The position numbers and the translations under genes were made by a program. Below the pieces are notes generated by a model. It made no database searches and was not told the origin of the DNA. It saw only the letters and a list, made by a program, of their open reading frames with translations. Below are positions 4,414 to 27,560 of a stretch of 32,270 bases of DNA, piece after piece. This DNA is from Paracoccaceae bacterium (GTDB taxonomy: Bacteria; Pseudomonadota; Alphaproteobacteria; Rhodobacterales; Rhodobacteraceae): positions 1-32,270 of the forward strand of contig JAHRVG010000077.1 of the NCBI GenBank assembly GCA_019090795.1, given 5' to 3'. The number at the start of each line of letters is the position of its first letter. The first letter of the stretch is position 1.

Positions 4414-4440
4414 TATTTATGTACTGCTTTACTAGTTAGG
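4414..4440. promoter_or_regulatory. copy 1 of the shared GTA-N6-TAC operator, upstream of the CoA ligase
   Basis: The left half-site is TATTTATGTA, followed by a 6-base spacer (CTGCTT) and the right half-site TACTAGTTAGG. On the opposite strand it begins CCTAACTAGTA, close to the CCTAATTAAGTA of the copy before the hemerythrin gene. It is the weakest of the four copies, but the fixed GTA-N6-TAC core and AT-rich arms are kept. It lies between the ligase start (4377) and the ubiD terminus, where the ligase promoter must be. Candidate regulator: the BadM-like protein at 12228-12647 (inference). Confidence 0.6.
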
Positions 4441-4609
4441 TGGATCGTAGCAAAGAAAGATCGTCATGACAACGCTTCTCCCTAAAGGCTGGGATACCCC
4501 TATCGGGTACTCTAACGGCATAACGGTGCCAGTGGGGGAAATTATTTTTGGCATTTACTATCGTACGGTTTGCAAGAATGCCCGCTGCCAAACACAAAGT
4601 GCTGCGCGC

Positions 4610-6091
4610 CTATTTGAACAAATCCGGTAGGTTTCGCGTGATTAGATCGACAGCAAAACTTGCATCTTCAGGGTTTGTTGCCATGACATCCCCCCAGTCT
4701 CGGGATGTTTCGCTTTCGATTTTGTTTGTTGCGTCAATCCCTATTTTTCCAGCAAGCCCCGGTTGGGGTGAGGCAAAATCAAGATAGTCCATCGGCGTAT
4801 TCTCCAAAACCATAACATCACGTCCCGGGTCCATTCGCGTGGCCAAAGCCCATGCAATATCATCCCAGTTTGACGGGTCAATATCATCATCGACCACCAC
4901 AATTATCTTGGTATAGCTAAACTGCGGTAGCATGCCCCAAAGCGCCATCATCACCCGCCTTGCCTGACCGGGATAACGCTTATTGATGCTGACAACGGCC
5001 ATGCGATAGGAACAGGCTGCAGGGGGAAGCCAAAGATCACGGATTTCCGGAATCTGCGCCCGGATGGTTGGCAAAGCAAGTTTGTTGAATACTTCACCAA
5101 TAATCGCCGGTTCATCCGGTGGGCGACCAGTATAGGTTGACAGATACAGCGGATCGCGCTGATGGGTAATGGCTGTCACCTGCACCACGGGAAACGGCTC
5201 GGCGGTATTGTAATACCCAGTGTGGTCGCCAAACGGCCCTTCCGGTGCCATTTTATCAGGTGAGACCCACCCCTCAATCACGATCTCGGCTTCTGCCGGA
5301 ACCAGCAAAGGCACTGTTTTGGCGGGAACAAGGCGCGGGCGCGCACCGCGAATTGCACCAGAGAATGTCAGTTCGGATACGGTTTCAGGCAACGGCAGCG
5401 CCGCCGACAACAAGGTCGCCGGATCTGCACCTATAACGATGGCGACGGGGGTTGGTTCCCCGTTGCTGGCCCAACTGCGATGATGCGCAGCACCTCCGCG
5501 ATGGGGCAACCACCGCATGATCAACTTGTCGCGCCCCAGAACCTGCGCACGGTAAACACCGGCATTGTAATGCCCAACCTCTTGAATTTTAGATCCGAAA
5601 GGGCGCGTCAACACCACAGGCCAGGTAATCAACGGCCCTACATCTCCGCGCCAATGGGTCTGAACCGGAATAGTTGCCAGATCAACCTCGTCCCCTTGGC
5701 TAACAACCTCTTGCACAGGTGCTTTGCTGCAAATTTTGGGTCGTGTTAAAAGTGCTGCTTTCAACATCGGCCACCGCGACAAGGCATCGCGCAACCCATC
5801 CGGTGCGCTTGGGGTTCTCAGCGCTGCAAGAAAATCCCCCAGGTCACCAAGATGGTCAACACCAACCCCAAGCCCGGCTGCAACACGCCCTTTGCTGCCA
5901 AAAAGGTTCACAATCACTGGCATGTCAGCGCGGCTGCCATCCGCGCGCAGGGGGTGATCAAACCGCAAAACCGGCCCGCCCTTTTCCAGAACGGCACGGT
6001 GCGCAGCGGTCATCTGATAGCGAAGGGAAACCGGTTCAGACAAGGTTTTGAACTGACCAGTATCGTCGCACCAGTTCAGAAAGCTGCGCAA
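4610..6091 (-). CDS. ubiD: UbiD-family prenylated-FMN decarboxylase, probably 4-hydroxy-3-polyprenylbenzoate carboxy-lyase
   Basis: UbiD removes the carboxyl group of polyprenylated 4-hydroxybenzoate in ubiquinone synthesis, using prenylated FMN made by UbiX (not in this window). The 493 residues counted from the TTG at 6091 include the cofactor/metal segment NAGVYRAQVLG (176-186), IMRWLPHRGG (191-200) and the acidic catalytic segment EGPFGDHTGYY (284-294). The TTG has no ribosome site, and homology-like sequence (RDYPPYPSLRSFLNW) continues upstream of it. AAAGGA at 6127-6132 is correctly spaced for a start at ATC (6121) or ATT (6118), so translation probably begins there at a rare codon. The gene is divergent from ubiTUV, and the two share an Fnr-type palindrome, which supports a ubiquinone role over a catabolic decarboxylase. 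Confidence 0.87.
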   Translation of the reverse strand: MRSFLNWCDDTGQFKTLSEPVSLRYQMTAAHRAVLEKGGPVLRFDHPLRADGSRADMPVIVNLFGSKGRVAAGLGVGVDHLGDLGDFLAALRTPSAPDGLRDALSRWPMLKAALLTRPKICSKAPVQEVVSQGDEVDLATIPVQTHWRGDVGPLITWPVVLTRPFGSKIQEVGHYNAGVYRAQVLGRDKLIMRWLPHRGGAAHHRSWASNGEPTPVAIVIGADPATLLSAALPLPETVSELTFSGAIRGARPRLVPAKTVPLLVPAEAEIVIEGWVSPDKMAPEGPFGDHTGYYNTAEPFPVVQVTAITHQRDPLYLSTYTGRPPDEPAIIGEVFNKLALPTIRAQIPEIRDLWLPPAACSYRMAVVSINKRYPGQARRVMMALWGMLPQFSYTKIIVVVDDDIDPSNWDDIAWALATRMDPGRDVMVLENTPMDYLDFASPQPGLAGKIGIDATNKIESETSRDWGDVMATNPEDASFAVDLITRNLPDLFK

Positions 6092-6171
6092 GCTCGGGTA
6101 TGGAGGGTAATCGCGAATGATAGTGTTCCTTTGATAAGTAATCTTGCGCCTAACAGCTAAGAAACGACGCC

Positions 6172-6191
6172 AACTTGACGATCGTCAAGTT
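6172..6191. promoter_or_regulatory. perfect 20-base Crp/Fnr-type palindrome between ubiD and ubiTUV
   Basis: AACTTGACGATCGTCAAGTT is an uninterrupted perfect palindrome. Its core TTGAC-GATC-GTCAA has the TTGAN6TCAA architecture of Fnr/FixK/AadR boxes, with C/G instead of the usual T/A at the fifth position. It is about 80 bases from the ubiT start and 60-90 bases from the possible ubiD starts, so it could control both directions. The same 14-base core recurs at 11336-11349 beside the crp/fnr gene. Confidence 0.78.
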
Positions 6192-6261
6192 ATGGTGGCT
6201 CACCCTCGGATAAAGAGAAAAATACGCTCCTGCCAATTCGACTGCCGCGAAAGGACACCCT

Positions 6262-7781: not shown

Positions 7782-7786
7782 TAGGA

Positions 7787-8680: not shown

Positions 8681-8683
8681 CCG

Positions 8684-11253: not shown

Positions 11254-11335
11254 ATAAACTCTCCACAATCCCAGGGAACCGAGTTGATACCCACCTGATT
11301 TTCCACAGGTTTTCAGGTGCAACCCCTTGTTGTCA

Positions 11336-11349
11336 TTGACGATCGTCAA
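11336..11349. promoter_or_regulatory. second exact copy of the Crp/Fnr-type palindrome
   Basis: TTGACGATCGTCAA is identical to the core of the site at 6175-6188. It lies about 90 bases before the preferred P450 start and about 130 bases before the crp/fnr start, so it can serve the P450-alkB operon, the regulator gene or both. Two exact copies of a 14-base palindrome, both in divergent promoter regions, are unlikely to be chance. Confidence 0.75.
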
Positions 11350-11376
11350 ATTTCACCCCAAGAATCATACCGCGAC

Positions 11377-11478: not shown

Positions 11479-12195
11479 ATGCAACGCAACAATAAAAATC
11501 AGCACCCTTGCGGGAATTGCGCCTTTTACGGCGAAAGCATCTGGCAGCCGGTTGCAGGCGACTCCGTTTCAGTTCTTATGCGCGGCTTTACCCGCAAGAA
11601 TTTGCAAAATGGGCAATCACTTTACCTGCAAGGTAGCGAGGGCAGCGGTGTCTTTTGTGTATCAAAGGGATTAATCGCGCTGCGCACCCATCACATGGAT
11701 GGATCCTCAACCCTGTTGCGATTGGCCTATCCTGGTGAGATCATCGGATTTCGCGCTTTTCTGGGAAATCGCCCACACCAAACCGAGGCTATCGCATTAC
11801 TGCCATCGCGTATCTGCACCGTAGCACGCCGCGGGGCCAACCAAATCATGCGGGCCAACCCGGAGGTGTTGGCGCAACTTGCCGCACGTTGTATTGACGA
11901 AATTGACAGAAATCATGCGCAAATCATCGCAACTGCCACCACCTCGAATAAACAACGCCTGAAAGACCTTATGCTATTTTTAATGGAAAAGCACGGGAGG
12001 CCTGTCGAGGCTGGGCATCTAATGCGACTGCCGCTTTCAAGATCAGATTTGGCAGATTTGTTGGGGGTTCAACCTGAAACCCTGTCCAGATTGATCAAGC
12101 GATTAGAAGAAGACGGGTTCTGCTCCATCACTGGCAGAAATGTCTTACTCTCCAGCCCGTCCCTATCTCATCAAAAGATTGCGCAGCCGCAATAA
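11479..12195 (+). CDS. Crp/Fnr-family transcription regulator (AadR/FixK-like)
   Basis: The 238-residue protein has an N-terminal cyclic-nucleotide-type beta-roll (about 25-145), a dimerisation helix and a C-terminal winged helix-turn-helix. The recognition helix QPETLSRLIKRLEEDG carries the E-x-x-S-R triad by which Fnr reads TTGA, matching the TTGAC-N4-GTCAA boxes seen nearby. It has an N-terminal C11-x2-C14 pair and further cysteines at 60, 113 and 138, but no third N-terminal cysteine as in classical Fnr. O2 sensing by a 4Fe-4S cluster is therefore possible but not assured. In Rhodopseudomonas palustris the Fnr relative AadR is needed for anaerobic benzoate and 4-hydroxybenzoate use, and position in the island suggests the same role. 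A weak site upstream hints at autoregulation. Confidence 0.88.
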   Translation: MQRNNKNQHPCGNCAFYGESIWQPVAGDSVSVLMRGFTRKNLQNGQSLYLQGSEGSGVFCVSKGLIALRTHHMDGSSTLLRLAYPGEIIGFRAFLGNRPHQTEAIALLPSRICTVARRGANQIMRANPEVLAQLAARCIDEIDRNHAQIIATATTSNKQRLKDLMLFLMEKHGRPVEAGHLMRLPLSRSDLADLLGVQPETLSRLIKRLEEDGFCSITGRNVLLSSPSLSHQKIAQPQ

Positions 12196-12227
12196 GGTCT
12201 GTTTTTTCCACACTCCAGGCTCTAGGG

Positions 12228-12647
12228 CTATTCCGCCGCAGCCCGCCCCTTGCGGCGCTCGATCTGCATCAGCATCGTCGAAATCGTCGTTGCGCCCAGC
12301 GTTGCTTTGGCAATGTCGTCGATCTCACACATGATGTCGAACACTGCCCATTCCACATCCGTCGCCTTACCCTCATCGTTCAGCTTGCAATCGCCGGAAA
12401 CATCCTCAAACAGCGCAATCACATCCAGCAACGTCACGCGGCGCGCGTTGCCGCTAAAACAATAGCCCCCCCCGACGCCACGCACCGATTTTACCAATCC
12501 GGCACGCCCTAGCGTGTGCATGACTTTGGCCAGATGGTGCGTAGAGACGCGAAACTTCTCACCTATTTCAGCGACAGAAACCTGCTTCTCTGGGTCAGAT
12601 GCCAGTTCTATCAGGGCAAAAATTGCCAGACGGCTAGACTTCTGCAT
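12228..12647 (-). CDS. badM: Rrf2-family transcription regulator, BadM-like
   Basis: This 139-residue protein has the Rrf2 winged helix-turn-helix: MQKSSRLAIFALIELA, SVAEIGEKFRVSTHHLAKVMHTLGRAGLVKSVRGVGGGY. It lacks the three closely spaced cysteines of IscR and NsrR; its only cysteines are C63, C87 and C107, so Fe-S binding is doubtful. In R. palustris the Rrf2 protein BadM represses the benzoyl-CoA reductase operon and works with the acetyltransferase BadL. Here a GNAT gene lies directly upstream on the same strand, 38 bases away, giving the same pair. It is the best candidate to bind the four GTA-N6-TAC elements in this window (inference). The orthology call depends on context as well as family. 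Confidence 0.8.
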   Translation of the reverse strand: MQKSSRLAIFALIELASDPEKQVSVAEIGEKFRVSTHHLAKVMHTLGRAGLVKSVRGVGGGYCFSGNARRVTLLDVIALFEDVSGDCKLNDEGKATDVEWAVFDIMCEIDDIAKATLGATTISTMLMQIERRKGRAAAE

Positions 12648-12685: not shown

Positions 12686-13159
12686 TCACAGCTCCATTTC
12701 CAACTGTATGTAAGGCCCTGCTACCATGCCTTCGCTGCGAAAAAAAGCCATATGCAACGCGTTTTGACGTGGCACCATTGTGCGAATGGTTGTTATGTCA
12801 GCGGCCGTAAATTCCGCCGAAATCGCCATAAACAGCTTCTCACCAATACCCTGCTGACGAGTGTCTGCTTCCACGGCAAATCCAAAAACCCAGCCGCTCG
12901 GTGCGCTGCCGAATTCCCAACCGCGCACAGCTCCGACGATATAACCCAACACTTTGCATTCTGCTTCGCCCGCACTGCAAGCTACCAGAAAAAACCGCTC
13001 GTCCAAGCGGCGGGTGGAATATCTTTCATAAATATCCTGCCAGTATTCCGGCTTGGCTATCTCGGTAACCCGTTCATCCAACGCGATAATAGCTGGAATA
13101 TCACCGCTTTGAATGCGGCGGATTTCGATCTCGCTTTGCTCTGGCTCCGCACTACTCAT
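12686..13159 (-). CDS. badL: GNAT-family N-acetyltransferase, BadL-like
   Basis: The single-domain GNAT protein has 157 residues from the ATG at 13159, which has GGGGA about six bases upstream; a GTG at 13189 would add ten residues with no ribosome site. The acetyl-CoA loop is visible as VEADTRQQGIGEKLF, preceded by the strand WVFGFA. In R. palustris BadL acetylates aminobenzoates and the products relieve repression by BadM. This gene forms an operon with the BadM-like gene and is divergent from hcrC, so the same small-molecule signalling is a reasonable hypothesis. GNAT proteins vary widely in substrate, so a protein or other small-molecule target cannot be excluded. Confidence 0.78.
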   Translation of the reverse strand: MSSAEPEQSEIEIRRIQSGDIPAIIALDERVTEIAKPEYWQDIYERYSTRRLDERFFLVACSAGEAECKVLGYIVGAVRGWEFGSAPSGWVFGFAVEADTRQQGIGEKLFMAISAEFTAADITTIRTMVPRQNALHMAFFRSEGMVAGPYIQLEMEL

Positions 13160-13203
13160 ATTCGTCCCCGTACCGTTTTCAAACTGCACTCATTCTACTC
13201 TAG

Positions 13204-13235
13204 TATTTAAATAGGTATAATGGTACTTTAATTAG
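13204..13235. promoter_or_regulatory. copy 2 of the shared operator, overlapping a perfect -10 box, between badLM and hcr
   Basis: The half-site TATTTAAATAGGTA, a 6-base spacer TAATGG and the half-site TACTTTAATTAG form the same GTA-N6-TAC element as the other three copies. A consensus TATAAT at 13216-13221 lies inside it, placed to serve hcrC (start 13271); its -35 box is poor. A protein bound here would cover the -10 and could repress hcr and, in the other direction, the badLM operon. Confidence 0.72.
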
Positions 13236-13270
13236 CATTTACAACAACCACCCGCAGAAAAGGCCAGCCT

Positions 13271-13738
13271 ATGAAGCAGATTATCAGCCTTTCGATCAAT
13301 GGTAAACAATTTGAAGACGCAGTTTCAGATAACATGCTGCTGATCGACTATCTGCGCAATACTAGGGGATTAACAGGGACAAAAACCGGTTGCGATGGAG
13401 GCGAGTGTGGTGCTTGTACCGTTATAATTGACGGGCAGGCACGGCCTTCTTGCATAACGCTTGCCTCAACATGCCACGGCGCATCTATCGAAACCATTGA
13501 GGGTCAGGCCCGAAACGGCATCCTAACCCCATTGCAACAGGCGTTTCACGAAAACCTTGGCACACAATGTGGATTTTGCACACCGGGCATGATCCTGACC
13601 GCCGAGGCCTTACTCCGCCACAACCCCGACCCCAGTGAGGACGAGATTAAACAGGCACTGGGCGGCAACCTCTGCCGCTGCACCGGTTATGTCAAAATCA
13701 TCAAATCCGTGCGCACTGCAGCAGAGGCAAATCCATGA
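13271..13738 (+). CDS. hcrC: 4-hydroxybenzoyl-CoA reductase, small 2Fe-2S subunit
   Basis: The 155-residue subunit is the electron-entry module of the xanthine-oxidase-family reductase that removes the para-hydroxyl of 4-hydroxybenzoyl-CoA to give benzoyl-CoA. The plant-ferredoxin-type cluster is bound by C41, C46, C49 and C61 ([11 protein letters not shown]...SC), and the second cluster by C100, C103, C135 and C137 (QCGFCTPG...LCRCTGY). Its length fits the family. It is the first gene of a tightly packed operon, and its stop overlaps the ATG of hcrA by four bases. The gene order small-large-medium matches hbaBCD of R. palustris. Expression is probably controlled by the operator 36-67 bases upstream. 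Confidence 0.93.
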
Positions 13739-16053
13739 TTGAACCGATAAAAGGCACTGTCGTCGGCCAACCCGTTCCACTGGTGGACGGCATCGAAAAA
13801 GTCACCGGCAAGGCGGTTTTCACCGCTGACCTGATTGCGCCCGACAACCTGACAGGTCGTATTCTGCGCTCGCCTGTCAGCCATGGGCGGATCATTCGGA
13901 TTGATACCTCCAAGGCTGAAGCACTGGAAGGTGTAACAGCCATTGTGACAGGTGAAGACTGCGCCTTCACCTATGGCGTAATTCCCATCGCCATGAACGA
14001 ATACCCCATCGCCCGCGACAGGGTGCGCTATCGCGGTGAAGCGGTTGCTGCTGTTGCCGCCGTGGATGCCCGCACCGCTGAGGCCGCCCTGGAGTTGATC
14101 GAGCTGGAAATCGAGGAACTGCCTGCGGTTTACACCCCAAAAGAATCCCGTGCGGTGGGGGCCGAATTACTGCACGACAACAAGCCCGGCAATCTGGAGC
14201 GGGAAGTTCACCATGAATTTGGCAATGTCGAAGACGGCTTTGCCTCTGCTGATCTGGTATCACAAGAGGTTTTCCACTGCGCCGAAATCAATCATGCGCA
14301 AATGGAACCCCACGCCGCGCTGGCCGAATACGACGTTTCACGCGACCACCTGACCTTGCATTCCGTCAGCCAAGTACCGTTTTACGTCCACCTGACCTTG
14401 GCGCGGTGCCTTGAAATGGACACCTCGCACATTCGCGTTGTTAAACCCTTTGTTGGGGGCGGCTTTGGCTCGCGCACCGAAACCCTGAACTTTGAAATCA
14501 TCGCCGCCTTATTGGCCCGCAAAGCAGGCGGCAAGGTGATGATGCAGCTGACCCGCGAAGAAACCTTCATCACCCATCGCGGTCGCCCCGACACCGAAGT
14601 CAAAATGAAAATCGGCCTGAGCAAATCCGGAAAAATTACCGCCGCCGCGTGCGAGGTGGTGATGAGCGGCGGTGCCTACGCAGGCTATGGCCTCGTCACC
14701 ATCCTTTATGCAGGCGCATTGCTGCACGGTATTTATGATGTGCCTACGATTAAATACGACGGCTATCGTGTCTACACCAACCACCCGCCCTGTGGTGCAA
14801 TGCGGGGCCATGGCACGGTGGATGTACGCCACGCCTTTGAATGCCTGCTTGATCGTATGGCACGCCAGCTGAACCTCGACCCGTTTGAGGTACGCAAGGC
14901 CAATATGCTGGCCGCCCCGATGTTCACCGCCAACGGGTTGATGATCAATTCCTACGGGCTGCCGGAATGTCTGGAAAAGGTCAAAGCCGCCAGCGGATGG
15001 AATGAACGCATCGGCCAAATGCCCGAGGGGCGCGGCCTGGGAATGGCTTGTTCGCATTACGTCAGTGGAGCTGCCAAGCCGGTACACTGGACCGGCGAAC
15101 CCCATGCGGTTGTGTCGATGAAACTTGATTTCGATGGCGGTATTACCGCCTTTACCGGTGCCTCCGACATCGGCCAAGGCTCGACAACAATTGTTGCCAT
15201 GGCCGCCGCTGAAATCCTCGGCGTTGATCTGGGACGTGTTCGGGTTTTGACCAATGACAGCGCGGTGACACCCAAGGACAATGGCTCCTATTCCTCACGC
15301 GTCACCTTTATGGTTGGCAACGCCGCAATCGAGGCCGCCAAAGCCATGCGCGAAAAACTGGTCGCCGCCGCTGCTACGAAACTCGATGTGTCACCCGATG
15401 AGGTTGAATGCGAAGGCGAAAGCTTCTTCGTTGCCGGTAGTAGCCAATCCGCCCTGCCGTTTCAGGACGTAGCCATCGCCGCCTTGGCCAGCGAGGGCAC
15501 CATCAACGTCAAAGGTACATTTACCACACCCGTAGAGGCCCAGGGCGGTAAACATCGCGGTGGCGCTGTAGGGTCGACCATGGGCTTTAGTTATGCCGCG
15601 CAAGTTGTTGAAGTTGCTGTTGATCCAGATACTGGACAGATCGCAGTCGACAAAGTTTGGGTCGCGCTCGATTGCGGCTTTGCCATCAACCCGCTGGCGG
15701 TTGAAGGCCAAATTGAAGGCTCTGTCTGGATGGGTATGGGGCAAGGATTATCAGAGGAAACCCATTATAAAAACGGCCTGCCGGTTCACGGGAATTTCCT
15801 TGATTATCGCGTACCGACAATCGTTGAATCTCCCGACATCGAGGTCCACATTGTTGAGAGCATAGACCCTTTAGGCCCATTCGGGGCCAAAGAAGCTGGC
15901 GAAGGCGCGCTTTCCGGCTTCCCCCCCGCCCTTGCAAATGCGGTAGCAAATGCCATCCAAACCGACGTGAATTTTCTCCCCCTCACACCGGACAGGCTGC
16001 TCGTCGCCCTCAATAAATCCCGCCGCGCCGCCCGCCGCAAGGAGGCATCATGA
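13735..16053 (+). CDS. hcrA: 4-hydroxybenzoyl-CoA reductase, large molybdopterin subunit
   Basis: The 772-residue catalytic subunit binds the molybdenum cofactor. Visible motifs are GGGFGSRTE (241-249), [17 protein letters not shown] around the middle, [17 protein letters not shown], and the active-site segment [13 protein letters not shown] with Glu720 in the position of the conserved catalytic Glu. The size is typical of the family. The enzyme reduces rather than hydroxylates its substrate and needs low-potential electrons. Overlaps at both ends with hcrC and hcrB (ATGA in each case) imply coupled translation and a stable 1:1:1 complex in the cytoplasm. A different CoA-ester hydroxylase of the family is made unlikely by the hcrB cluster loop. 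Confidence 0.93.
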
Positions 16054-17009
16054 GCGACACACTCCCCAATTTTCAACTCCTGCGTCCCGACACAATTCAG
16101 GCCGCCGTTGCCATATTGCATGACACAGAAAACGCCAAGCTCTGCGCAGGTGGCACCGACCTGATCGTCAACATGCGGCGGGGTCTCGCCACACCGAAAG
16201 CTTTGGTGGATCTGACCGCTATCAAAGAGATGCAGCAGATCACCAATGACACAGAGGGCCTGCATATCGGTGCCGGTGTGACCCTGTCGGAACTGGCCCA
16301 GAATACCCCCCATTCCGCCATTGCCCAAGCGGCCCTCGCCATCGCTGGCCCCGGCCACCGCTTTGCCGCAACAGTGGGTGGCAACCTCTGCCTAGACACC
16401 CGCTGCCAGTATTATAATCAAAGCCATTGGTGGCGAAAATCCAACGATTTCTGCCTGAAATATCGCGGCGAAACCTGCCACGTTGCGCCCTCTGGAAACC
16501 GCTGTCGTGCGGCGTTCACCGGCGACTTGGCCCCTGCCTTTTTGGTACTGGGTGCCGAAGTCGACATCGCAAGCCCCCAAGGTATCCGCCGCATCCCGCT
16601 TGCCGAACTTTATAGCGGCGACGGGACCGATTACCTGACTTTGGCTGACAATGAAATCGTCACCAAAATCCACCTGCCGCCCGGCTCGGCAAAATCCGTC
16701 TACGGCAAAATTCGTATCCGTGGTGCCCTCGACTTCCCCCTTGCAGGCGTGGCCATCGCGGCCAAGAAATCCGCCCGTGAAACCCGCTTTCGCATCGCCT
16801 TAACCGGCACAAATTCCCGCCCTGTCTTACTGGACGACCCCGCGCCATTCACCACAAACGACAGCGCGGAAACCTATTTTTCGGCCCTCAACAAAGCGGT
16901 GCAAAAGGCCGCCTCGCCGCAGCGCTCGACCATCACCGCTCCTTTGTATCGCAAACAATCCATTGGCGCGCTGGCTGCGCGTTTGGCGCAAGGGCTGACG
17001 AATGACTGA
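16050..17009 (+). CDS. hcrB: 4-hydroxybenzoyl-CoA reductase, FAD subunit with the extra 4Fe-4S loop
   Basis: The 319-residue FAD-binding subunit carries [15 protein letters not shown] near residues 31-45 and [21 protein letters not shown] near 100-120. Its decisive feature is an insert with cysteines C119, C135, C143 and C152. This spacing of 16, 8 and 9 residues is the one that binds an additional 4Fe-4S cluster in 4-hydroxybenzoyl-CoA reductase and is absent from ordinary xanthine dehydrogenases. The cluster is thought to let electrons flow in the reductive direction. The insert makes this the strongest functional call in the hcr operon. The stop overlaps the start of the next small gene by eight bases. 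Confidence 0.94.
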
Positions 17010-17259
17010 AGAACCGCCGGGTAAATATTGGCGCGACGATGGCATTTTGCACATCGACGTGCGCGGCCTTGGCCCGCCCGAACCAATGGTGGCAATTCTA
17101 TTCCACATCGAAAAACCCGAAGAGGTCGGCCCCGTCATCGTGCATCATTTCTGCGAACCAATCTATTTCTACCCCGAGCTTACGGAAATGGGCTGGAGTT
17201 ATGAAATCATCCCCGGCGAACCCGAAGAAGTGCGCCTGATCCTAAGGCAAAAGACATGA
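17002..17259 (+). CDS. DUF2249-like small protein in the hcr operon
   Basis: The 85 residues include HIDVRGLGPPEPMVAILFHIE and EPIYFYPELTEMGWSYEI, the pattern LDVRxLxPPEPMxxIL...EPxxLYPxLxExGxxYE of the DUF2249 (TusA-like) family. Members are often found with hemerythrins and nitric-oxide-related genes; their biochemical role is not established. Unlike TusA it has only one cysteine, C52 in HHFCEP, and no CPxP motif. It overlaps hcrB by eight bases and the membrane-protein gene by four, so it is translated with the reductase. A link to electron supply, metal handling or protection from NO or O2 is possible but not shown. Confidence 0.7.
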   Translation: MTEEPPGKYWRDDGILHIDVRGLGPPEPMVAILFHIEKPEEVGPVIVHHFCEPIYFYPELTEMGWSYEIIPGEPEEVRLILRQKT

Positions 17260-19221: not shown

Positions 19222-19252
19222 CCTTATTTAGGTATTACAGTACTTAATTAGG
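19222..19252. promoter_or_regulatory. copy 3 of the shared operator, before the hemerythrin operon
   Basis: The most symmetrical copy: half-site CCTTATTTAGGTA, spacer TTACAG, half-site TACTTAATTAGG. A candidate promoter, TTGCCG (19213-19218), 17 bases, TACAGT (19236-19241), has its -10 inside the element. The korA promoter shows the same TACAGT -10 in the same 17-base spacing. A bound repressor would block RNA polymerase. Confidence 0.7.
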
Positions 19253-19278
19253 TTAATAGACAAACTTTGGGGAAACCA

Positions 19279-19776
19279 ATGGATTTTTCAAGCCGAATTG
19301 CCCAGTTAATTCACGAAGACCACAGCGAAACCATCGCCCTGATCGAACTATTAGAGGGGATGGTGGCCAAGGCACGGCGAAATACCCCTGATGTTAGTGA
19401 TCCGCAGGTCAGCAAAACCCTGCAAAAGACCGCTGCAATGATCGCCCATGAAACCCGCGGGCACTTCAATTTTGAGGAAACCATGCTGTTTCCCATCCTG
19501 GAAGAGGCCGGCGACGTGGCCATTGGTGCCCACCTGCGAGAAGAACATGCCAGCATCCTGCCTTTGGGCGAGCAGGTCGAAACCCTCGCCAGCGCGGCCC
19601 TTATCGACGGGTTTACCGACGCTAGTTGGGCCGAATTCCGAAACCTGACCGGCGAAATGACCGAGCGCATGCTCGCCCATATTCAGAAAGAGGAAATGGC
19701 CCTTTTGCCGCTTCTCGAAGACTTACTGGACCCGCAAATCGACATGGAACTGTCGCAAGCATTTGCATCCGCATAG
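19279..19776 (+). CDS. hemerythrin-like HHE-domain protein
   Basis: The 165-residue helical protein carries the ligand set of a hemerythrin-type di-iron site: H12 and H15 in HEDH, H57 in HETRGHFNFEE with H62 and E66, H85 and H90 in HLREEH, and H134 with E138 in HIQKEEMALLPLLE. Such proteins bind O2 or NO, or handle iron. The ATG at 19279 has GGGGA a few bases upstream; a TTG at 19267 is a worse start. It leads a two-gene operon with the tandem-GNAT protein nine bases downstream. Sharing the operator of the aromatic genes suggests it guards O2- or NO-sensitive enzymes such as BcrCBAD, or senses these gases (inference). Confidence 0.85.
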   Translation: MDFSSRIAQLIHEDHSETIALIELLEGMVAKARRNTPDVSDPQVSKTLQKTAAMIAHETRGHFNFEETMLFPILEEAGDVAIGAHLREEHASILPLGEQVETLASAALIDGFTDASWAEFRNLTGEMTERMLAHIQKEEMALLPLLEDLLDPQIDMELSQAFASA

Positions 19777-19785
19777 GAGAAACCG

Positions 19786-20760
19786 ATGACGACCAATCTT
19801 AAAGCCCTGACTGCCAACGACCTAGAGGCGGTCATCATCATCGACCGCGCCCATACCGGAACCTCGCGGCGTGGCTATTTCGAAAAACGGCTGGCGGCAG
19901 CAACCGACCGCCCAAAAGATTACGTCTATGTCGGCCTGCACATTGACGACACGCTCGCCGGTTTCGCTTTTGCCAAACTGGTCGAAGGCGAGTTTGGCAA
20001 GCTCGGTGCCAGCGCAGCACTTGATGCTATCGGGGTCAATCCGGCGTTTCAAGGTCAGGGCGCGGGCCGTCAACTGCTGGCCGGAATCGAAAGCATTCTA
20101 ACCGCAAAATCGGTCTCCCAGATCACCAGCCAGGTCGATTGGTCAAACCAGACCATGCTGGGCTTTCTGGCCAATGCAGGTTTTACCCTCGATAGCCGCA
20201 TGGTGCTTGAGCGCTCGACCGAGGTGATCGGTACTGCTGATGCGGTGATGGGCGAAGACGACCAACCGCTGGAAATTGATTTCTCCTCGCCCGATAGCGA
20301 TGATCCGGACGCCCTGTCCCACGACAAGGTGCCGGTCCGCACGATGAAGGAGAACGACCTCCGCTCGCTGATTTCCATTGATCGCAAAAATTTCGGAACC
20401 AAACGCGCCGCCTATTTCGAACGCAAACAATACGAAGTACTGCACGCCTCGGGCATCCGCGTTTCACTGGTCGCGGAATTGGATGGTTACCCGGTCGGCT
20501 TTATCATGGCGCGGGTGGATTATGGTGAATTCGGCCACGCGGGCCAAGAGGCGGTGATGGACACAATCGGTGTCGATCCGGGGTATCAGGGCCATGGTGT
20601 CGGCCAAGCTCTAATGGTACAGTTGGTGGCGAACCTCTCGGTGCTGCAAGTGGAAACCCTGCGCACAGAGGTGGAGTGGGATGACACCGGAATTATCCAT
20701 TACCTCAGTAAAACAGGGTTTAAACCGGCACAACAGATTACCCTGAAGCACCGTTTGTAA
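19786..20760 (+). CDS. tandem GNAT-domain acetyltransferase
   Basis: The 324 residues hold two GNAT domains joined by an acidic linker (about 155-180). Each has its own acetyl-CoA loop: LDAIGVNPAFQGQGAGRQLL (80-98) and the matching DTIGVDPGYQGHGVGQALM (259-277). The halves also share AxDL..IIxIDR, RxxYFExR and EFGxxGxxAxxDxIGV, so the gene arose by internal duplication. Both halves keep the Q/R-x-x-G-x-G/A pattern, so both may be active. The substrate is unknown; in this context acetylation of an enzyme such as the CoA ligase, or of an aromatic amine as with BadL, is worth considering. It follows the hemerythrin gene in one operon. Confidence 0.82.
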   Translation: MTTNLKALTANDLEAVIIIDRAHTGTSRRGYFEKRLAAATDRPKDYVYVGLHIDDTLAGFAFAKLVEGEFGKLGASAALDAIGVNPAFQGQGAGRQLLAGIESILTAKSVSQITSQVDWSNQTMLGFLANAGFTLDSRMVLERSTEVIGTADAVMGEDDQPLEIDFSSPDSDDPDALSHDKVPVRTMKENDLRSLISIDRKNFGTKRAAYFERKQYEVLHASGIRVSLVAELDGYPVGFIMARVDYGEFGHAGQEAVMDTIGVDPGYQGHGVGQALMVQLVANLSVLQVETLRTEVEWDDTGIIHYLSKTGFKPAQQITLKHRL

Positions 20761-20790
20761 GACGTAAAACCCTGGCCGCACAATAAGAGA

Positions 20791-21276: not shown

Positions 21277-21440
21277 ATTTTCTTCTCTAAATGTTGTGTT
21301 CTCTGGCCTGAGGCTTGTGAAAATATCTACCGCCCGCAACACGGACTCAATCCAAACCAACACGTCACTAGGATAAAAGCTAACCCCAAGATAAGTAAAG
21401 CGACACCGACAAATAAAGTGCTACCTTGAACAAAACAGAG

Positions 21441-21466
21441 ACAGCCCTACAAACAAGCAGGGCTGT
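21441..21466 (-). terminator. Rho-independent terminator of the dch-bcr-flavodoxin operon
   Basis: ACAGCCCT (21441-21448) and AGGGCTGT (21459-21466) form a perfect eight-base stem with a ten-base loop. On the minus strand it is followed by TCTCTGTTTTG, a moderately T-rich run. It lies 35-60 bases past the flavodoxin stop and before psiE, so it should end the operon that begins at dch. Confidence 0.75.
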
Positions 21467-21500
21467 TCACGTTCAGGGCGCAAGGGAACACCACCCATAG

Positions 21501-22013
21501 CTACCCAAGCGCCGCTTGAACCTGCTTGACCCAAGCCTCACAACGGGCGTCTGTTTCGTCGTCTTGCGTGTCCTCGTCAATCGCAAGGCCCACAAAATGA
21601 TCCGCGCTCGCCGTTAACGCCCGACTGGCCCCGAAATCATAGCCCTCAATCGGCCACTCCCCGATTACAGTAGCGCCTTGGCCGGAAACCGCCTCGGCCA
21701 GATCGCCCATGGAATCAAGGAAATAATCCCCGTAACCCACCTGATCCCCCAGCCCGAACAGCGCCACAACCTTTTGCGAAAAGTCGATGGAATAAAGATT
21801 GGGCCAGAATTCTTCCCAATCCGGCTGTTTGCCGCCATTATCCAGTGTCGGCGTACCCAAAATCAGGATCTCGAACTCCTCAAAATCCTCATTTGAGGCC
21901 TCGGCGATGTTGATAACCTCAACCTCCCCGTCGGGAAACAATTTCTGTATCCGTTCGGAAACGTCCTCAGTGTGACCCTCATCCGTGCCGTAAAACAAAC
22001 CAATAGATGCCAT
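21501..22013 (-). CDS. fld: long-chain flavodoxin in the benzoyl-CoA reductase operon
   Basis: The 170-residue protein is a flavodoxin: FMN phosphate loop GTDEGHTED (9-17), first ring loop GTPTLDNGGKQPDWEEFW and second ring loop GLGDQVGYGDYFLDSMGDL, with the extra strand of long-chain members. It is small and acidic, as expected for an electron carrier. It follows bcrD by 15 bases, so it is cotranscribed with benzoyl-CoA reductase. In known class I clusters this place is usually filled by a 2x4Fe-4S ferredoxin, and no ferredoxin gene is visible here. The simplest reading is that it carries electrons from KorAB to BcrCBAD, or serves as backup under iron limitation (inference). Confidence 0.92.
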   Translation of the reverse strand: MASIGLFYGTDEGHTEDVSERIQKLFPDGEVEVINIAEASNEDFEEFEILILGTPTLDNGGKQPDWEEFWPNLYSIDFSQKVVALFGLGDQVGYGDYFLDSMGDLAEAVSGQGATVIGEWPIEGYDFGASRALTASADHFVGLAIDEDTQDDETDARCEAWVKQVQAALG

Positions 22014-22028
22014 TGTTAACTCCTTTTC

Positions 22029-22874
22029 TTAAGATGCCTTGAGGTGCATACCCGATGCCGCCAACTTGTCATGACGGAACGCGCCCCAGAGCGCGGCCCC
22101 GATGGCACCGGCAAAAATCGAATCCGTGTGGCTGGTAACTTCCGCTGTCACCCCGCGCATTTTGGCCAGTTCTTCACGCATCGCTTCAACCAGCCCTTCG
22201 TCCTGCGCCAGACCGCCTGTCATCATCACCAGCTCATTCTTGACGCCAATGGATTTCAGCAACCGCGCAAGGCGACTGGCCATCGACAGGTGAATCCCCT
22301 TGAGGATATTGGGCGAGGTAATCCCCCGCGACACCATATTGATTACATCGGTTTCCGCCAGAACGGCACAGATGCTGGATACGTTTTCCGGATTATCCGC
22401 CGAGACCGACAGCTTGCCGATTTCATCCTGCGCAATGCCCAAATACCGTGCGATGTTTTCCAGAAACTGGCCCGAACCCGAGGCGCACTGGCTGGTCATT
22501 TTGTAATTCGTCACCTTGCCCGGATCATTGGTAATAATCGCGCGCCCGTGCAGCGCGCCGCAATCCATAATCGCGCGGCATTCCGGGTCAAGAAATCGTG
22601 CCCCCCGCGCATGGCTGGTCATCGAATAAAAATGCCCTGTATGAAACGGGATGCTCTCGCCCTCGCCTGTGGTCGCAATGTAATCAAGGTCACTTTCCTT
22701 GATTCCCGCCTCCTCCAGCGTTTGGTCAAAGGCTTCGCGTGCCAATTGCATCGGATCACGTTGGCGAATGCGCATGATGGATTTTGCCAGCCACTCCTCG
22801 CGCCCATCCTCTACCCGGAAAATCGCAGCCTTGACGGCCCCGGTTCCCACATCAATTCCTGCAGCCAGGGTCAT
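22029..22874 (-). CDS. bcrD: benzoyl-CoA reductase delta subunit (ATPase/activator module)
   Basis: The 281-residue ASKHA-fold subunit begins [17 protein letters not shown] (ATP phosphate loop) and has [21 protein letters not shown] with C130 and a second conserved cysteine at 169 ([11 protein letters not shown]). With BcrA these bind the 4Fe-4S cluster shared between the two ATPase subunits. Two ATP are hydrolysed per electron pair to reach the very negative potential needed to reduce the benzene ring. The ATG overlaps the bcrA stop by four bases. The equivalent in R. palustris is BadG. An activator of a 2-hydroxyacyl-CoA dehydratase would look similar, but the four-gene set with dch and kor rules that out. 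Confidence 0.94.
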
Positions 22875-24184
22875 GCGTCTATTCCTTCCATGCGACCGGA
22901 CGCAGCGCGGCGGGCAAACTCGGCCCCCCCAAGCGCACCGGTGTAAATTGAATCCGGATCAATGTTGATCTGCACCTCGCCGTAGTTTTCAAACACCAGC
23001 TTTTTCAACTCGCGCACTGCGGCCTCGTTTTTGGCCACACCGCCGGTAAAGGTGAACTGGTCCTCAACCCCGCCGGATCGCGACAGGATCGACATGGCGC
23101 GCAGGATAATGGCGCGGTGCAAACCCGCCAGAATATCCTCGCGTTTTTCACCCAACGCCAGACGGTCGCGCAGCTCGGCACCCGCAAACACGGTGCAGGT
23201 CGAATTGATCCGCGCCGGCTTGGCCGATTTCATCGCCAACGGTCCCAGCTCATGCAGACCCATGTTCATCTCGTCCGCAATATAACCCAGATAACGGCCA
23301 CAGCCCGCCGCACAACGGTCGTTCATTTGGAAGTTTTCCACGATACCGCTGGCATCTACCTGAATGCCTTTGGTGTCCTGTCCGCCAATATCCAAAACCG
23401 TGCGCGTGTGGGGATACATCATATGCGCCCCCAGCCCGTGGCACAGAATTTCGCTGCGAATATGTTCTTTTGAAAACGGCAGCGTCACGCGGCCATAACC
23501 GGTACCCACCAGATAGGTTTCCTCCAGTTCAATTCCCAAAGCACGATCCACACGCCCTGAAAAATCACTGGCCTCTCCCTTGCTGATCCGGTCCAGCGCG
23601 CGCTTGAAATTTTCACTCAGCGTGCCCTTGGGCGGGCGATTTTCAACCGCGATAATGGATTTGTCATAGACATTCAGCAGCATGTCATAGGGCAGCTCCG
23701 CCTCGCGCGCCACTTCTTCGGAAATCGACAGATAGCGTGATCCGGCGATATCGCGGAAGAAATCCGACTTGCGGTCTGATTCCGGTGCAAACATTGGCGG
23801 CGCTTCTCCGCGCAGACGCTTGAACACCTCGGCCAAGGCCTGCTTAACCCCGTCTTCGATCTTCTCGAACCGTTCGCCTTTGACTTGCGAAATGCAGGTT
23901 TCTTCCAAATCTCCCAGCTGTTCCAAAAACTGCTCCAGCCGGAAAGAGCGCTCCAGATCCCCCAGAAACGCCTCTGCCTCGGCGGTATTTTCATCCCCGT
24001 CGAATTCACGCCGAAACAGGTTGAAACGCGCGTCGACCATCGCCTCTTGCTGCGCCACCCGACAAGCGGTGTCATAGTTGGAGCGCGAGTTGGTAATCCC
24101 GCGTCCCAGAATTTCCTCGTTCTCGTCCATCAACACGGCTTTGGTGGTGGTGGACCCCAGATCAATTCCGACAAAAGTTTTCAT
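22871..24184 (-). CDS. bcrA: benzoyl-CoA reductase alpha subunit (ATPase/activator module)
   Basis: The 437 residues have the ASKHA ATPase fold with phosphate loop [15 protein letters not shown] (5-19) and a roughly 150-residue insertion before the second half, as in the Thauera/R. palustris type alpha subunit. [13 protein letters not shown] (265-277) and [19 protein letters not shown] (288-306, with C291 and C295) mark the nucleotide and cluster regions. It pairs with BcrD and shares the 4Fe-4S cluster at their interface. It overlaps bcrB and bcrD by four bases at each end. The insertion distinguishes it from the shorter Azoarcus BzdQ type. The R. palustris name is BadF. Confidence 0.94.
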
Positions 24185-25488
24185 GCTGCTGCCCCCGCAC
24201 CGCTGCGTTTCTGTTCAACCATTTGAAAGTAGCTTTCCAACCGGTTCTTGACGTTGGCAGCCGAGAAATAACGCGGATCCACCAGATCGGTTTCAATGAA
24301 CGCCGCCGGTTTGCCCGTGCGTTTTTCGACCTCTCGCATAATCAGCAATTGCCCCGCCGAAAAGCTGTTACAGCTTTTGATCGAGTTGATCAGCAAGCCA
24401 TCCGCCTGATATTCGTTGATATAGTCGGACAGCATGTCAATGCGCGATGGTAGGCTGCGGTTAGTGTAAACCCCGAGGCAATATTCCGCGAGGGTTTCAA
24501 GCGGTCGGTCAGGATCATGGCGAAAACCGTAATCATAGGTGCCCCCCACCTTGGTATAGCTGGACGCCACTACGGTCGCACCTTCTTCATAGAACATTTT
24601 CCAGAACTGGCGGAAACTGGTGTAATTTGGCGGGCCCTCCACAACCAGTCGGTATTTCTCCTCACCCATGGGGCCGTCTGGCGTCACGGGCCCAAGACCC
24701 TTGAGCATGCGGTCATCCACCTCATCGCGCAGAAAACGATAGTAATCAATCGCATCATCCGTGCCGCGAAATGCGCCGAAAATCGGACCGATATAATAGA
24801 TACCGCCAAAATAGGCATCAATCGGAGAGCGCACATGTTTGCCGCTTTGCAGGATGTAAACCAGATCATCCTCGGCCTTGGCCGATTTGCCCAGATACTC
24901 CCGCAGGCGATCAATATCAAACTTCACGCCGCTGACTTCCTCAAGCACCGGAATAACGTTTTCTTTCAGTTGCTTGACCATGTATTGAATCATATTCGGC
25001 GTCACCTTACCATCAGCCACATAGGGCGTCTGCAAGAAAATCGTCGGGCATTTATACTGCTCGCGCAGCAGTTCGAACCACTTCAAAAAGGTGAAACAGC
25101 CGGTGTAGGACAGCAGCAAAACATCCGGATCCGGCAGCTTTTTACCGTTCGGCCCGATGTTGCCTTTCATCATCATACCAATGTCAGATTTCACGTATGT
25201 GCAGACATCCTCCGAGTGGCCAGCCCGTTCCGCCTCCATGATATAGGCGCCGGATTGCTTGCGCAGCCCGCTTTGAATCGCGTTCACTTCTGGCAGGTTA
25301 TTCACCAGATCAAAACACATCAGCAGCTCGTTCAGATTGCCCGGCACAAAGGTCGAGGCAACCTTATCCCCGTTCTCCTTTGCATTGGTCAGGCGGTCAT
25401 AATGCGCCGTCATCATCTGCTTTTGCTTGATCATCGACGCATCTTTTTCAACGTCGGCAGGACTGGCTTTTAAAAGGGGCTTTCTCAT
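24181..25488 (-). CDS. bcrB: benzoyl-CoA reductase beta subunit (ring-reducing module)
   Basis: This 435-residue protein of the HgdB-like dehydratase/reductase family begins [19 protein letters not shown]. It forms with BcrC the module that binds benzoyl-CoA and Fe-S clusters. Cysteine-bearing segments include [37 protein letters not shown] and [42 protein letters not shown], the last being a family signature. The ATG at 25488 has GGAG seven bases upstream and overlaps the bcrC stop as ATGA; an upstream ATG at 25500 is less likely. The equivalent in R. palustris is BadE. Confidence 0.93.
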
Positions 25489-26660
25489 GCGGCGCTCCAT
25501 AATTTGATTGAATCAACAAAGGTTCCTGCCTGCTCGCGAATTGGCTGCATCTGGCCGGAGTTTTCGGCGTATTTGAAGGCGATGAACGGAATGCCTGCCG
25601 CCTTCAGGACGTTTTGCAGCATCGGACGATCCAGCAGCGCCGGATCGCAAAAGCTGGTAGAGGCAAAGATCACACCCTCCGCGCCGGTCTCCTTCACCGC
25701 GCGCACCAGAAACTGGCCTTTTTCCTCTTCATTCGGCTCGTACTTCGCGGCAGTCGACATCGAGTGATGCAGGAAGGCTTGCGACAGATTGTAGATCGGA
25801 TCACCCTCCAGCGGCACGTCGCCAATCAACCAGCGCGACACCAGCATGAAATCATCGTCGACGACAAAACAGCCTGACAATTCTAGTGATTTAATCAGAT
25901 TCAGCGGCGGTTGTTCGCAGAACATCCCAGTCACAACCACACGGCTGTTATCCTTGATCGGACGGCTTTCCGACTGGGCCGCATCAATATACTGGCGCAG
26001 CAAAACGGAGTGTTCCTCAACCGGCAGAACCAGCCCGGCACGCACCACCAGATAAGCCTCGGAGGCCGGAGCCAGCCACGGTTTTTGCGCCCGCAACGTA
26101 TACAGCTCATTCACCAACTGGCGGTTCTCGTTGTAAACCTCAATCGAGTTGCGCAATGCCTCGTCGGTGATTTTTCTGCCCGATATCTTTTCCAGATCAG
26201 CGCGAAACTCGTTCATCTCACCCATGTAAAACGTACCGCCAATCTCATCCTGATAGGTTTGCGGCACATCGAAATATTTGGAATAGACCTCTGGAAACAG
26301 CATTTTCCACATGCCCGACAGGTTGCGGATCACGTCGCAGATCGACGGAAACAGCATGCCATCCACAAAATCCAAACGCCCCGTGACACCCAGCTCCACG
26401 GTAGACCGCGGAATGCGGCAAATGTAGCTTTGATAGTAAGCATCACCGTGAATAACTTCCAGATTATCGCCGCCACCCATGATCCCCAGAGGCAACATGC
26501 CCGCCGCGTGGATAATTTCGCGCGGGATATAAACCGGCAGATAACCAATCACTTTGCGCCCCGCTTCGGCAGCTTTCCATTCGCGTGCAGTGGTGAAATT
26601 CAGGTCTTCATAAAGTTCCTGACACCGGGCAACGATCTCGCTTGTGGTTGGATTTGTCAT
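25485..26660 (-). CDS. bcrC: benzoyl-CoA reductase gamma subunit (ring-reducing module)
   Basis: The 391-residue HgdB-like subunit begins MTNPTTSEIVARCQELYEDL and contains GYLPVYIPREIIHAAGMLPLGIMGG, the N-terminal family signature, CRIPRSTVELG and ASTSFCDPALLDRPMLQNVLKAAGIPFIAF. These carry the cysteines expected to hold the 4Fe-4S clusters near the substrate. The ATG at 26660 has GGGAG six bases upstream and overlaps the dch stop, so the order dch-bcrC-bcrB-bcrA-bcrD-flavodoxin is translationally coupled nearly throughout. An ATG four codons upstream exists but is worse spaced. The equivalent in R. palustris is BadD. Confidence 0.93.
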   Translation of the reverse strand: MTNPTTSEIVARCQELYEDLNFTTAREWKAAEAGRKVIGYLPVYIPREIIHAAGMLPLGIMGGGDNLEVIHGDAYYQSYICRIPRSTVELGVTGRLDFVDGMLFPSICDVIRNLSGMWKMLFPEVYSKYFDVPQTYQDEIGGTFYMGEMNEFRADLEKISGRKITDEALRNSIEVYNENRQLVNELYTLRAQKPWLAPASEAYLVVRAGLVLPVEEHSVLLRQYIDAAQSESRPIKDNSRVVVTGMFCEQPPLNLIKSLELSGCFVVDDDFMLVSRWLIGDVPLEGDPIYNLSQAFLHHSMSTAAKYEPNEEEKGQFLVRAVKETGAEGVIFASTSFCDPALLDRPMLQNVLKAAGIPFIAFKYAENSGQMQPIREQAGTFVDSIKLWSAA

Positions 26661-27424
26661 GTGTTCTCCCACTTGGCTTTGCGCTTCGCGAGAAAGGCCT
26701 CAAGCCCTTCAACCGCATCATGCGTTGACATTAATTCGTTCAGATAGAGGTCTTCGACCGCCTGCAATTTGGCGACCATGCGTTCAGTAAATCCCATCCG
26801 CGCAGCGCGCACCGCAAACCGCAGGGAACCGGCACTTTTACGTCCCAGATGTTTATCAAAATACGCCAGTGCCGCTGCTGTCGGATCATCCGCCAACGTG
26901 TCCACCAGCCCCATTGCCAACGCTTGCGTGCCGGAAACACTGCGGCCAGAATAAAGCAAATCCTCTGCGCGGGCTTGGCCGACCCGTTCGGGCAACAGGC
27001 AAGACGCAGCGGGCGCGAACACCCCCAGCATCATTTCCGGCTGGCCCAGATTGGCGGTTGGGGCTGCAAACAAACAATGCCCCGCCATCGCCACCTCCAG
27101 CCCGCCACCCAGACATTGACCGTTGATCGCAACCAACACCGGCAACGGATATTTCAGCATGGTTTTCACCAGTGCATGCAGCGCAGCCAACATTTCCGCA
27201 CAACTATCCGGTAAATGTTCTTCAACACTGGCCCCAAAGCTGAAATGCGGCCCCTCGGCCTCTAGCAGCACCGCGGTCAAATCCTTGTTGGCTGCATGAT
27301 CCCCAAAGGCTTCATCTAGCGCGGCTATCATTTCCGCATCCACGATATTGGCCCTGGGCCGGTTCAGCACCAGCCGCAGCAGCGCACCATCACGATCAAG
27401 GCTTATGCCCAGGGGTCCGCTCAT
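26657..27424 (-). CDS. dch: cyclohexa-1,5-diene-1-carbonyl-CoA hydratase
   Basis: This enoyl-CoA hydratase/isomerase family protein adds water to the product of benzoyl-CoA reductase, giving 6-hydroxycyclohex-1-ene-1-carbonyl-CoA. The CoA-binding loop reads GPHFSFGASVEEHLPD (58-73), a segment characteristic of dienoyl-CoA hydratases, and the second oxyanion loop reads NGQCLGGGLEVAMAG (101-115). It has 255 residues from the ATG at 27424. An in-frame ATG at 27448 sits only two bases after GGAG and could be the true start, adding eight residues. It leads the bcr operon, as in Thauera, whereas R. palustris uses BadK-type enzymes instead. The partner genes had and oah are not in the window. Confidence 0.87.
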   Translation of the reverse strand: MSGPLGISLDRDGALLRLVLNRPRANIVDAEMIAALDEAFGDHAANKDLTAVLLEAEGPHFSFGASVEEHLPDSCAEMLAALHALVKTMLKYPLPVLVAINGQCLGGGLEVAMAGHCLFAAPTANLGQPEMMLGVFAPAASCLLPERVGQARAEDLLYSGRSVSGTQALAMGLVDTLADDPTAAALAYFDKHLGRKSAGSLRFAVRAARMGFTERMVAKLQAVEDLYLNELMSTHDAVEGLEAFLAKRKAKWENT

Positions 27425-27503
27425 GCGTACACACGGCCCCGGAAACATATCTCCTGTTTTCCATCTTGTGCCATGCGGGTCTTTCTCCTTGTGGTTGGCT
27501 GTG

Positions 27504-27532
27504 TTGACAGCGGCGATATTCCCTATTACAGT
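27504..27532 (+). promoter_or_regulatory. sigma-70 promoter for korAB
   Basis: TTGACA (27504-27509) and TACAGT (27527-27532) are separated by 17 bases and point toward korA. The predicted start of transcription, about 27539, falls inside the operator that follows, which fits repression by a bound protein. The hemerythrin promoter has the same TACAGT box and spacing. Confidence 0.65.
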
Positions 27533-27560
27533 AAATAAGTACTCGAATACTTTAATTGGG
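27532..27560. promoter_or_regulatory. copy 4 of the shared operator, between dch-bcr and korAB
   Basis: Half-site TAAATAAGTA, spacer CTCGAA and half-site TACTTTAATTGGG: the inner five bases, AAGTA and TACTT, are a perfect inverted repeat. It sits in the divergent promoter region of the benzoyl-CoA reductase and 2-oxoacid oxidoreductase operons and could control both. It is the place where the R. palustris BadM site would be expected, upstream of the reductase genes. Confidence 0.73.

Follow-up and report, generated by a model that had tools for sequence, protein, structure and literature searches.

The window analysed here, which is the entire contig JAHRVG010000077.1 (32,270 nt) of a Paracoccaceae bacterium whose genome amounts to 3.63 Mb in 141 contigs, contains four copies of a long AT-rich palindromic element, which is most probably the operator of a BadM-like Rrf2 repressor encoded in the same gene cluster. 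The four copies, with the E-values given by the profile model R1 described below, and the badL-badM pair are:

4406..4440, minus strand: operator copy 1, the weakest, about 45 bp before the start of the benzoate-CoA ligase gene.
13207..13241, plus strand: operator copy 2, between badL and hcrC (E 2.3e-4).
19224..19258, plus strand: operator copy 3, some 40 bp ahead of the start of the hemerythrin gene (E 1.4e-4).
27524..27558, minus strand: operator copy 4, between dch and korA, holding the TACAGT of a korA promoter-like pair (E 0.0046).
12228..12647, minus strand: badM-like Rrf2 regulator gene, the candidate repressor (TIGR00738, 96 bits against a cut-off of 73; PF02082, 88 bits against a cut-off of 30).
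12686..13189, minus strand: badL-like GNAT acetyltransferase gene (PF00583), directly upstream of badM.

The four copies are real and occur far above chance. The original prediction described them as GTA-N6-TAC dyads with AT-rich half-sites in promoter regions, and all four are present, with GTA-N6-TAC starting at 4421, 13215, 19232 and 27539 and with 12, 15, 14 and 14 A/T per 16 flanking bases in copies 1 to 4, respectively. The exact spacer of six bases is equally borne out, as a count of GTA-Nn-TAC dyads with at least 11 A/T among the 16 flanking bases of the window gives six dyads at spacing 6 and none at spacings 2–5 and 7–11, while 500 first-order Markov sequences average 0.10 dyads at spacing 6 and reach 2 at most. 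Besides the four reported dyads, the six include one at 4413 and one at 27531, each of which overlaps a reported dyad with an offset of 8 bp. With a 35-column matrix made from 102 sites, none of them from the window, the four copies are the top four distinct places of the window (44.0, 42.0, 39.1 and 26.0 bits), as compared with a window peak of 11.6 bits on average and 25.4 bits at most for 100 column-permuted matrices. The overlap with -10 boxes proposed for three of the copies holds for site 4, where a promoter scan identified TTGACA-N17-TACAGT (27504-27532); the other overlaps are unsupported by that scan, which flagged neither the TACAGT at site 3 nor the TATAAT at site 2, both of which exist in the sequence, as a member of a hexamer pair, and which places the end of a promoter-like pair at 4444, just beyond the element, at site 1.

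The element is a palindrome of about 34 bp centred on GTAC, and GTA-N6-TAC is an off-centre view of it. The consensus of 102 oriented sites is TAAATAgGTATTnnaGTACynwwwTAcnnnwTTTA, and in an alignment of 56 sites the TAC of GTAC and three other bases never vary. The middle of GTA-N6-TAC was rejected as the main axis, since it gives a matched fraction of 0.487 against 0.557 for the GTAC centre (102 sites, 17 pairs), although the matrix used for picking the sites was symmetric about the GTA-N6-TAC centre; the fraction is 0.403 at the second GTA-N6-TAC centre and 0.228, 0.252 and 0.291 at control axes of +2, +6 and -4, respectively. The original description thus has to be corrected in both its centre and its length. 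The symmetry resides in the consensus and not in site-by-site covariation, because column-shuffled controls score nearly alike at every axis. Secondary dyads number 98 at ±8 bp versus 7 at all other offsets within 40 bp taken together, as counted with a matrix refined on the same sites, and the element occurs in both orientations. Two BadM dimers with overlapping footprints would be a natural reading of such a two-dyad element.

The element is conserved beside badM in other genomes. A matrix made from the four window copies was scanned over the best 80 of 148 loci encoding a BadM relative in named genomes (1.25 Mb in total, reaching at most 10 kb on each side of badM and often less, with no record named R. 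palustris among them), and gave 145 matches scoring 17 bits or more, whereas 60 column-permuted matrices averaged 1.7 and never exceeded 6. The matches merge into 102 sites in 59 of the 80 loci, and the 35-column matrix, computed without the locus under test, places a site of at least 18 bits (a cut-off set without a null) in 69 of the 80. Sites were also counted within 350 bp upstream of genes at 14 bits or more, leaving out matches below 50% identity to the ligase, dch, korB, hcrA and hcrC as well as starts not reached or at a locus end. By this count, sites precede korA in 9/10 cases, the ligase in 11/13, the hemerythrin gene in 21/26, hcrC in 27/40 and badL in 39/67, the last being the pattern of autoregulation. 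They are few before bcrC (4/17), dch (0/11), the second GNAT gene (2/26), a 416-residue open reading frame (1/25) and a sigma-factor match (0/1), and are absent (0/203) upstream of the operon-internal genes hcrA (36), hcrB (34), badM (80), bcrA (11), bcrB (14), bcrD (20) and korB (8), while permuted matrices give means of at most 1.35 per gene class. The promoters of the CoA ligase, hcr/badL, hemerythrin and kor genes, named as targets in the original prediction, thus carry sites in relatives as well. Its further target dch-bcr is upheld indirectly, by a site shared among relatives between kor and had or bcrC, and not by dch itself. The inclusion of mdaB is unsupported, as the site lies about 120 bp from the mdaB reading frame and no mdaB match is listed in the 80 BadM loci.

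Among 60 relatives of the source genome, BadM at E ≤ 1e-15 occurs in two, namely G010 (same genus, 64% identity) and G037 (same class, 49%). The matrix made from the window sites, which is free of overlap with the training of the profile model, finds strong matches in G010 before the kor, hemerythrin, badL/hcr and ligase genes, and in G037 before the kor and hemerythrin genes. The profile model R1, a sequence-only model with rough E-values, was trained on 56 of the 69 non-window sites in loci L018-L053 (the 13 omitted being mostly weaker or near-duplicate) and run on the source genome and the 60 relatives. Three of its training sites lie in L032 and account for three R1 matches in G010, and at least one more (L049) appears to be in G220 of the class survey described below, judging from an identical neighbouring site. 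Matches at E < 0.05 are limited to the three BadM genomes (the source genome, G010 and G037), the best match in the remaining 58 genomes having an E-value of 0.068. A motif scattered over the genome at random density had been set beforehand as the result that would speak against an operator, and this was not what was found: the matches of the source genome at E < 0.05 are three window copies and one more. Simpler patterns served poorly, as the short pattern with two mismatches was too loose on the source genome (84 matches, and 608 for the reversed pattern) and longer typed patterns matched 0/130 loci in one case and 1/10 in another.

The additional match is a fifth copy, located on contig C107 of the source genome (22498-22531), matched by R1 on both strands and scoring 42.7 bits with the 35-column matrix. 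The original statement that there is no fifth copy therefore stands for the window and fails for the genome. Genes of the paaG, paaI, paaK and TetR types are located upstream of it, and downstream, on the same strand, are genes for an FlK-type thioesterase, a 911-residue molybdopterin oxidoreductase, an iron-sulphur subunit, a PaaK-like ligase and an alpha/beta hydrolase; the second PaaK-like ligase, downstream of the copy, scores 607 bits against a cut-off of 646. From its domain content, the operon behind the fifth copy is a putative route of anaerobic phenylacetyl-CoA oxidation feeding benzoyl-CoA, so that the predicted regulon of the window would reach outside the cluster. Homologues of the thioesterase have an upstream site in L023, L026, L041, L050 and G010.

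Across the Alphaproteobacteria, strong sites follow BadM, in support of the proposal that the BadM-like protein would be the regulator of the element. The survey covered 385 genomes of the class drawn evenly from a larger group, 22 of which encode BadM at E ≤ 1e-25. R1 matches at E ≤ 0.005 occur in 15/22 BadM genomes and 2/363 others (Fisher 6e-20, kinship ignored), and at E ≤ 0.05 in 17/22 and 19/363, kinship again being ignored. Targeted scans, made in BadM genomes only, raise the 17 to 21/22, as four of the five remaining genomes (G102, G158, G394 and G316, the last in locus L144) have a strong site beside badL. The gene bcrC is found in 15/385 genomes, of which 15 have a motif match and 14 have BadM. 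The gene boxC is found in 79/385, and only 2 of the 59 boxC genomes without BadM have a motif match, while 7/8 BadM genomes without bcrC have a site; the site is thus tied more closely to BadM than to the box pathway, and it is kept in the absence of the reductase.

A number of observations weigh against BadM as the regulator. The BadM genome G262 has no site in either the class scan or the targeted scan, and G342 possesses a clear had-oah-dch-bcr site with no BadM match, its assembly being 94% complete. Since all 15 bcrC genomes have a match, bcr and the motif are inseparable by that set alone; the BadM genomes are aromatic degraders too, and the counts ignore phylogeny. Only 18 candidates per genome were scored under strict filters, so that matches were missed in both groups. 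In the named genomes, no site reaches 18 bits in 11/80 BadM loci and badL has no upstream site in 28/67 cases, and as these sites were collected around BadM genes, the upstream table alone cannot name the regulator. Copy 1 is clearly the weakest and is missed by the profile model at E ≤ 1, both genome-wide and in the window; its support as an operator comes chiefly from the ligase genes of other loci, most of which have the site.

The element might instead be the operator of another regulator travelling with the pathway, for instance the Crp/Fnr protein encoded at 11479-12195, with BadM as a bystander. This gene adjoins badM in the window, and in R. palustris the activator of the bad operon, AadR, is of the Crp type (PMC6191541); the proposal is nevertheless improbable, as the window Crp/Fnr protein has no match listed in the 80 BadM loci (tblastn, E ≤ 1e-10) and the element is unlike an Fnr box, two copies of TTGACGATCGTCAA being located elsewhere, at 6175 and 11336. 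The Fnr-type pattern TTGAT-N4-ATCAA is nowhere matched perfectly, and of its 23 matches with at most two mismatches (about 15 being expected) none is at the four sites. A reading of the conserved element as an AT-rich core promoter common to these operons, and not as a repressor site, is very improbable. It does lie about 40–70 bp before several starts, and one copy holds the TACAGT of the TTGACA-N17-TACAGT pair, but it is a long palindrome with a nearly invariant GTAC, found in both orientations, and its strong enrichment in BadM genomes is not expected of ordinary promoters. That AT-rich palindromes came to be clustered here four times by chance is scarcely credible: AT-rich stretches score easily in small genomes, several of the 19 BadM-less genomes with matches at E ≤ 0.05 being of 0.8-1.6 Mb, yet the permuted-matrix, Markov, upstream-position and genome-wide results all oppose such a cluster, and the conservation at orthologous promoters that would tell against it was found.

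Assignment of the element to BadM is compatible with the protein and its gene neighbourhood. Two family models above their curated cut-offs place the window BadM in the Rrf2 family, badL lies next to badM in the window and a badL match lies beside badM in 80/80 loci, and benzoyl-CoA reductase genes (bcr, 22029-26672) are linked to it; the sole other badM match in the source genome has 32% identity across residues 4-81. In the predicted DNA-recognition region, S35, H37, H38, L39, A40, K41 and V42 are kept in at least 90% of 82 BadM sequences. The window BadM has three cysteines (63, 87 and 107), none of which is conserved in the set, and thus lacks the three conserved cysteines of the IscR/NsrR iron-sulphur subgroup; 46/82 sequences contain no cysteine at all and the commonest cysteine column reaches 27/82, which speaks against an iron-sulphur sensor.

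We infer a mechanism, including the binding of BadM to the element, the repression, the ligand and how many dimers bind. BadM would occupy the site of about 34 bp centred on GTAC, probably in the form of two dimers or of a single extended one. There it would overlap or adjoin the promoters of the benzoate-CoA ligase, badL-badM/hcr, hemerythrin-GNAT, dch-bcr/kor and the distant putative phenylacetyl-CoA oxidation operon, and would hold these operons off until an aromatic signal arrives. By analogy with R. palustris, the releasing signal may be acetamidobenzoate made by BadL. The earlier proposal of a regulon wider than benzoyl-CoA reductase and including the hemerythrin operon holds by comparative genomics, and the predicted target genes of the window, together with the Crp/Fnr-type gene, are:

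2842..4377, minus strand: benzoate-CoA ligase family gene (TIGR02262, 786 bits against a cut-off of 375).
11479-12195: Crp/Fnr-type regulator gene, adjoining badM (family search).
13271..17009, plus strand: hcrCAB-like 4-hydroxybenzoyl-CoA reductase (TIGR03194 above cut-off; TIGR03193 and TIGR03195 slightly short, with 257.5 against 257.8 and 400 against 404.6).
19279..19776, plus strand: hemerythrin-domain protein (PF01814, 60 bits; candidate His/Glu residues of a di-iron site conserved in 27 proteins).
19786..20760, plus strand: two-domain GNAT acetyltransferase downstream of the hemerythrin gene (PF00583 in two stretches).
21501..27412, minus strand: benzoyl-CoA reductase operon comprising flavodoxin, bcrD, bcrA, bcrB, bcrC and dch (TIGR01752, TIGR02261, TIGR02259, TIGR02260, TIGR02263 and TIGR03189 above cut-off; dch start approximate).
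27617..30186, plus strand: korAB-like 2-oxoacid:acceptor oxidoreductase (TIGR03710 above cut-off; beta-subunit models below theirs).

The hemerythrin could take up oxygen or nitric oxide near the oxygen-sensitive reductases, and its joining to the unit together with an acetyltransferase suggests an oxygen guard for these enzymes. The homologue of the two-domain GNAT protein in G010 has weak similarity to BadL (25%, E 5e-9), and this acetyltransferase might use aromatic amines of the type that BadL uses. The open reading frame at 17256-18506 encodes a hydrophobic protein of 416 residues, probably a many-helix membrane protein, which no fewer than 25 of the 80 BadM loci encode, in many cases next to hcrB. 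A provisional alkB label for it was a wrong guess; Pfam and NCBIfam searches at 0.001 returned no match, and it is possibly a member of an undescribed family tied to the aromatic pathway. Family searches also recognised ubiTUV in the window. The palindromes TTGACGATCGTCAA are identical and perfect at 6175-6188 (before ubiT) and 11336-11349 (between the P450 and Crp/Fnr genes), and are perhaps sites of the window Fnr-like protein, linking anaerobic ubiquinone synthesis to that protein.

Further genes carry sites in relatives. Sites precede had in five loci by similarity, two of which are confirmed by TIGR03201 above cut-off, as well as a TIGR03200-like oah (442 bits against a cut-off of 464), binding proteins resembling the branched-chain amino acid ABC type (below cut-off), a KorC-type subunit and, in four loci, an unclassified protein of 133-140 residues. 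The genes had and oah adjoin dch in G404 and G342, and had is located between dch and kor in G010 and G037. In the source genome the dch-korA interval (window 27412-27617) is without had; no had was found in the whole genome at E ≤ 1e-40, and an oah fragment as query gave only matches of 32-34%, although the genome is rated 100% complete. A weak element (E 0.29, 29.9 bits), to be taken as a lead, lies in G010 (L130:8004-8038, contig C614) just before the TRAP transporter operon dctPQM, which is a possible aromatic-acid uptake system.

Sites also occur before boxC, which is assigned by TIGR03222 above cut-off in L072 and L082. In five of ten hand-chosen stretches (L181, L182, L183, L186 and L188), from genomes without a bcrC match, badL-badM is divergent from boxC with the site between them. 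The boxC of the source genome is on another contig (C69), where no R1 match at E ≤ 1 is listed. In an Agrobacterium plasmid typed as conjugative (NZ_CP123840.1, L195), badL-badM is found beside a molybdenum hydroxylase, an ABC transporter and a benzoate-CoA ligase, with a 24.6-bit site before badL; the badL-badM unit can thus sit on a mobile element.

On balance, these data lean towards BadM as a general benzoyl-CoA switch, in which one long two-dyad operator would control uptake, CoA activation, 4-hydroxybenzoyl-CoA and benzoyl-CoA reduction, electron supply, the phenylacetyl-CoA side route and a hemerythrin that binds oxygen or nitric oxide in anaerobic degraders, while in genomes without the reductase badL-badM would control the oxygen-dependent box pathway, the signal chemistry being kept and the pathway swapped. 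The boxC sites suggest one kind of switch common to the aerobic and anaerobic benzoyl-CoA routes. The analysis provides a precise candidate operator for a regulator which, in the literature examined, had a target operon and a ligand and no consensus site, and this operator predicts the genes that anaerobic aromatic degraders treat as one unit.

The system most closely resembles that of R. palustris, where BadM represses badDEFGAB and binds a 212-bp badD promoter fragment, and where 2-acetamidobenzoate blocks the binding at 10 mM and not at 5 mM, as stated in the sections of the source consulted (PMC6191541). The same sections report that BadL homologues of M. magneticum and G. metallireducens acetylate aminobenzoates, and describe the badL-badM adjacency for R. 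palustris and others (PMC6191541). A search of PMC6191541 returned none of the words operator, inverted repeat, footprint and palindrome, and neither a BadM operator consensus nor BadM control of box genes appears in the paper titles and abstract openings searched; such an operator may already be in print. Both systems share a badL-badM pair near benzoyl-CoA reductase genes, an Rrf2-type regulator and a benzoyl-CoA target. Unlike in R. palustris, the regulon predicted here would also take in hcr, a separate ligase operon, kor, hemerythrin-GNAT and the distant putative phenylacetyl-CoA operon, and the predicted targets in relatives add had, oah, ABC-type binding proteins and boxC.

IscR, NsrR and CymR, which are among the Rrf2 regulators with solved structures, belong to the same family as BadM, and the operators of these Rrf2 regulators are shorter than the two-dyad site of about 34 bp. 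The BadM profile matches their chains as well as entry 4cic, designated 'BADM/RRF2 FAMILY' by its depositors; unlike IscR and NsrR, the BadM set is not expected to hold a cluster bound by three conserved cysteines. BzdR and BoxR are members of a different protein family from BadM. These Azoarcus proteins are specific regulators of benzoyl-CoA routes, according to the part of the source consulted (PMC4424350), and BadM resembles them in the specific control of a benzoyl-CoA route, while several of the alphaproteobacteria studied here carry a BadM-type site before boxC instead.

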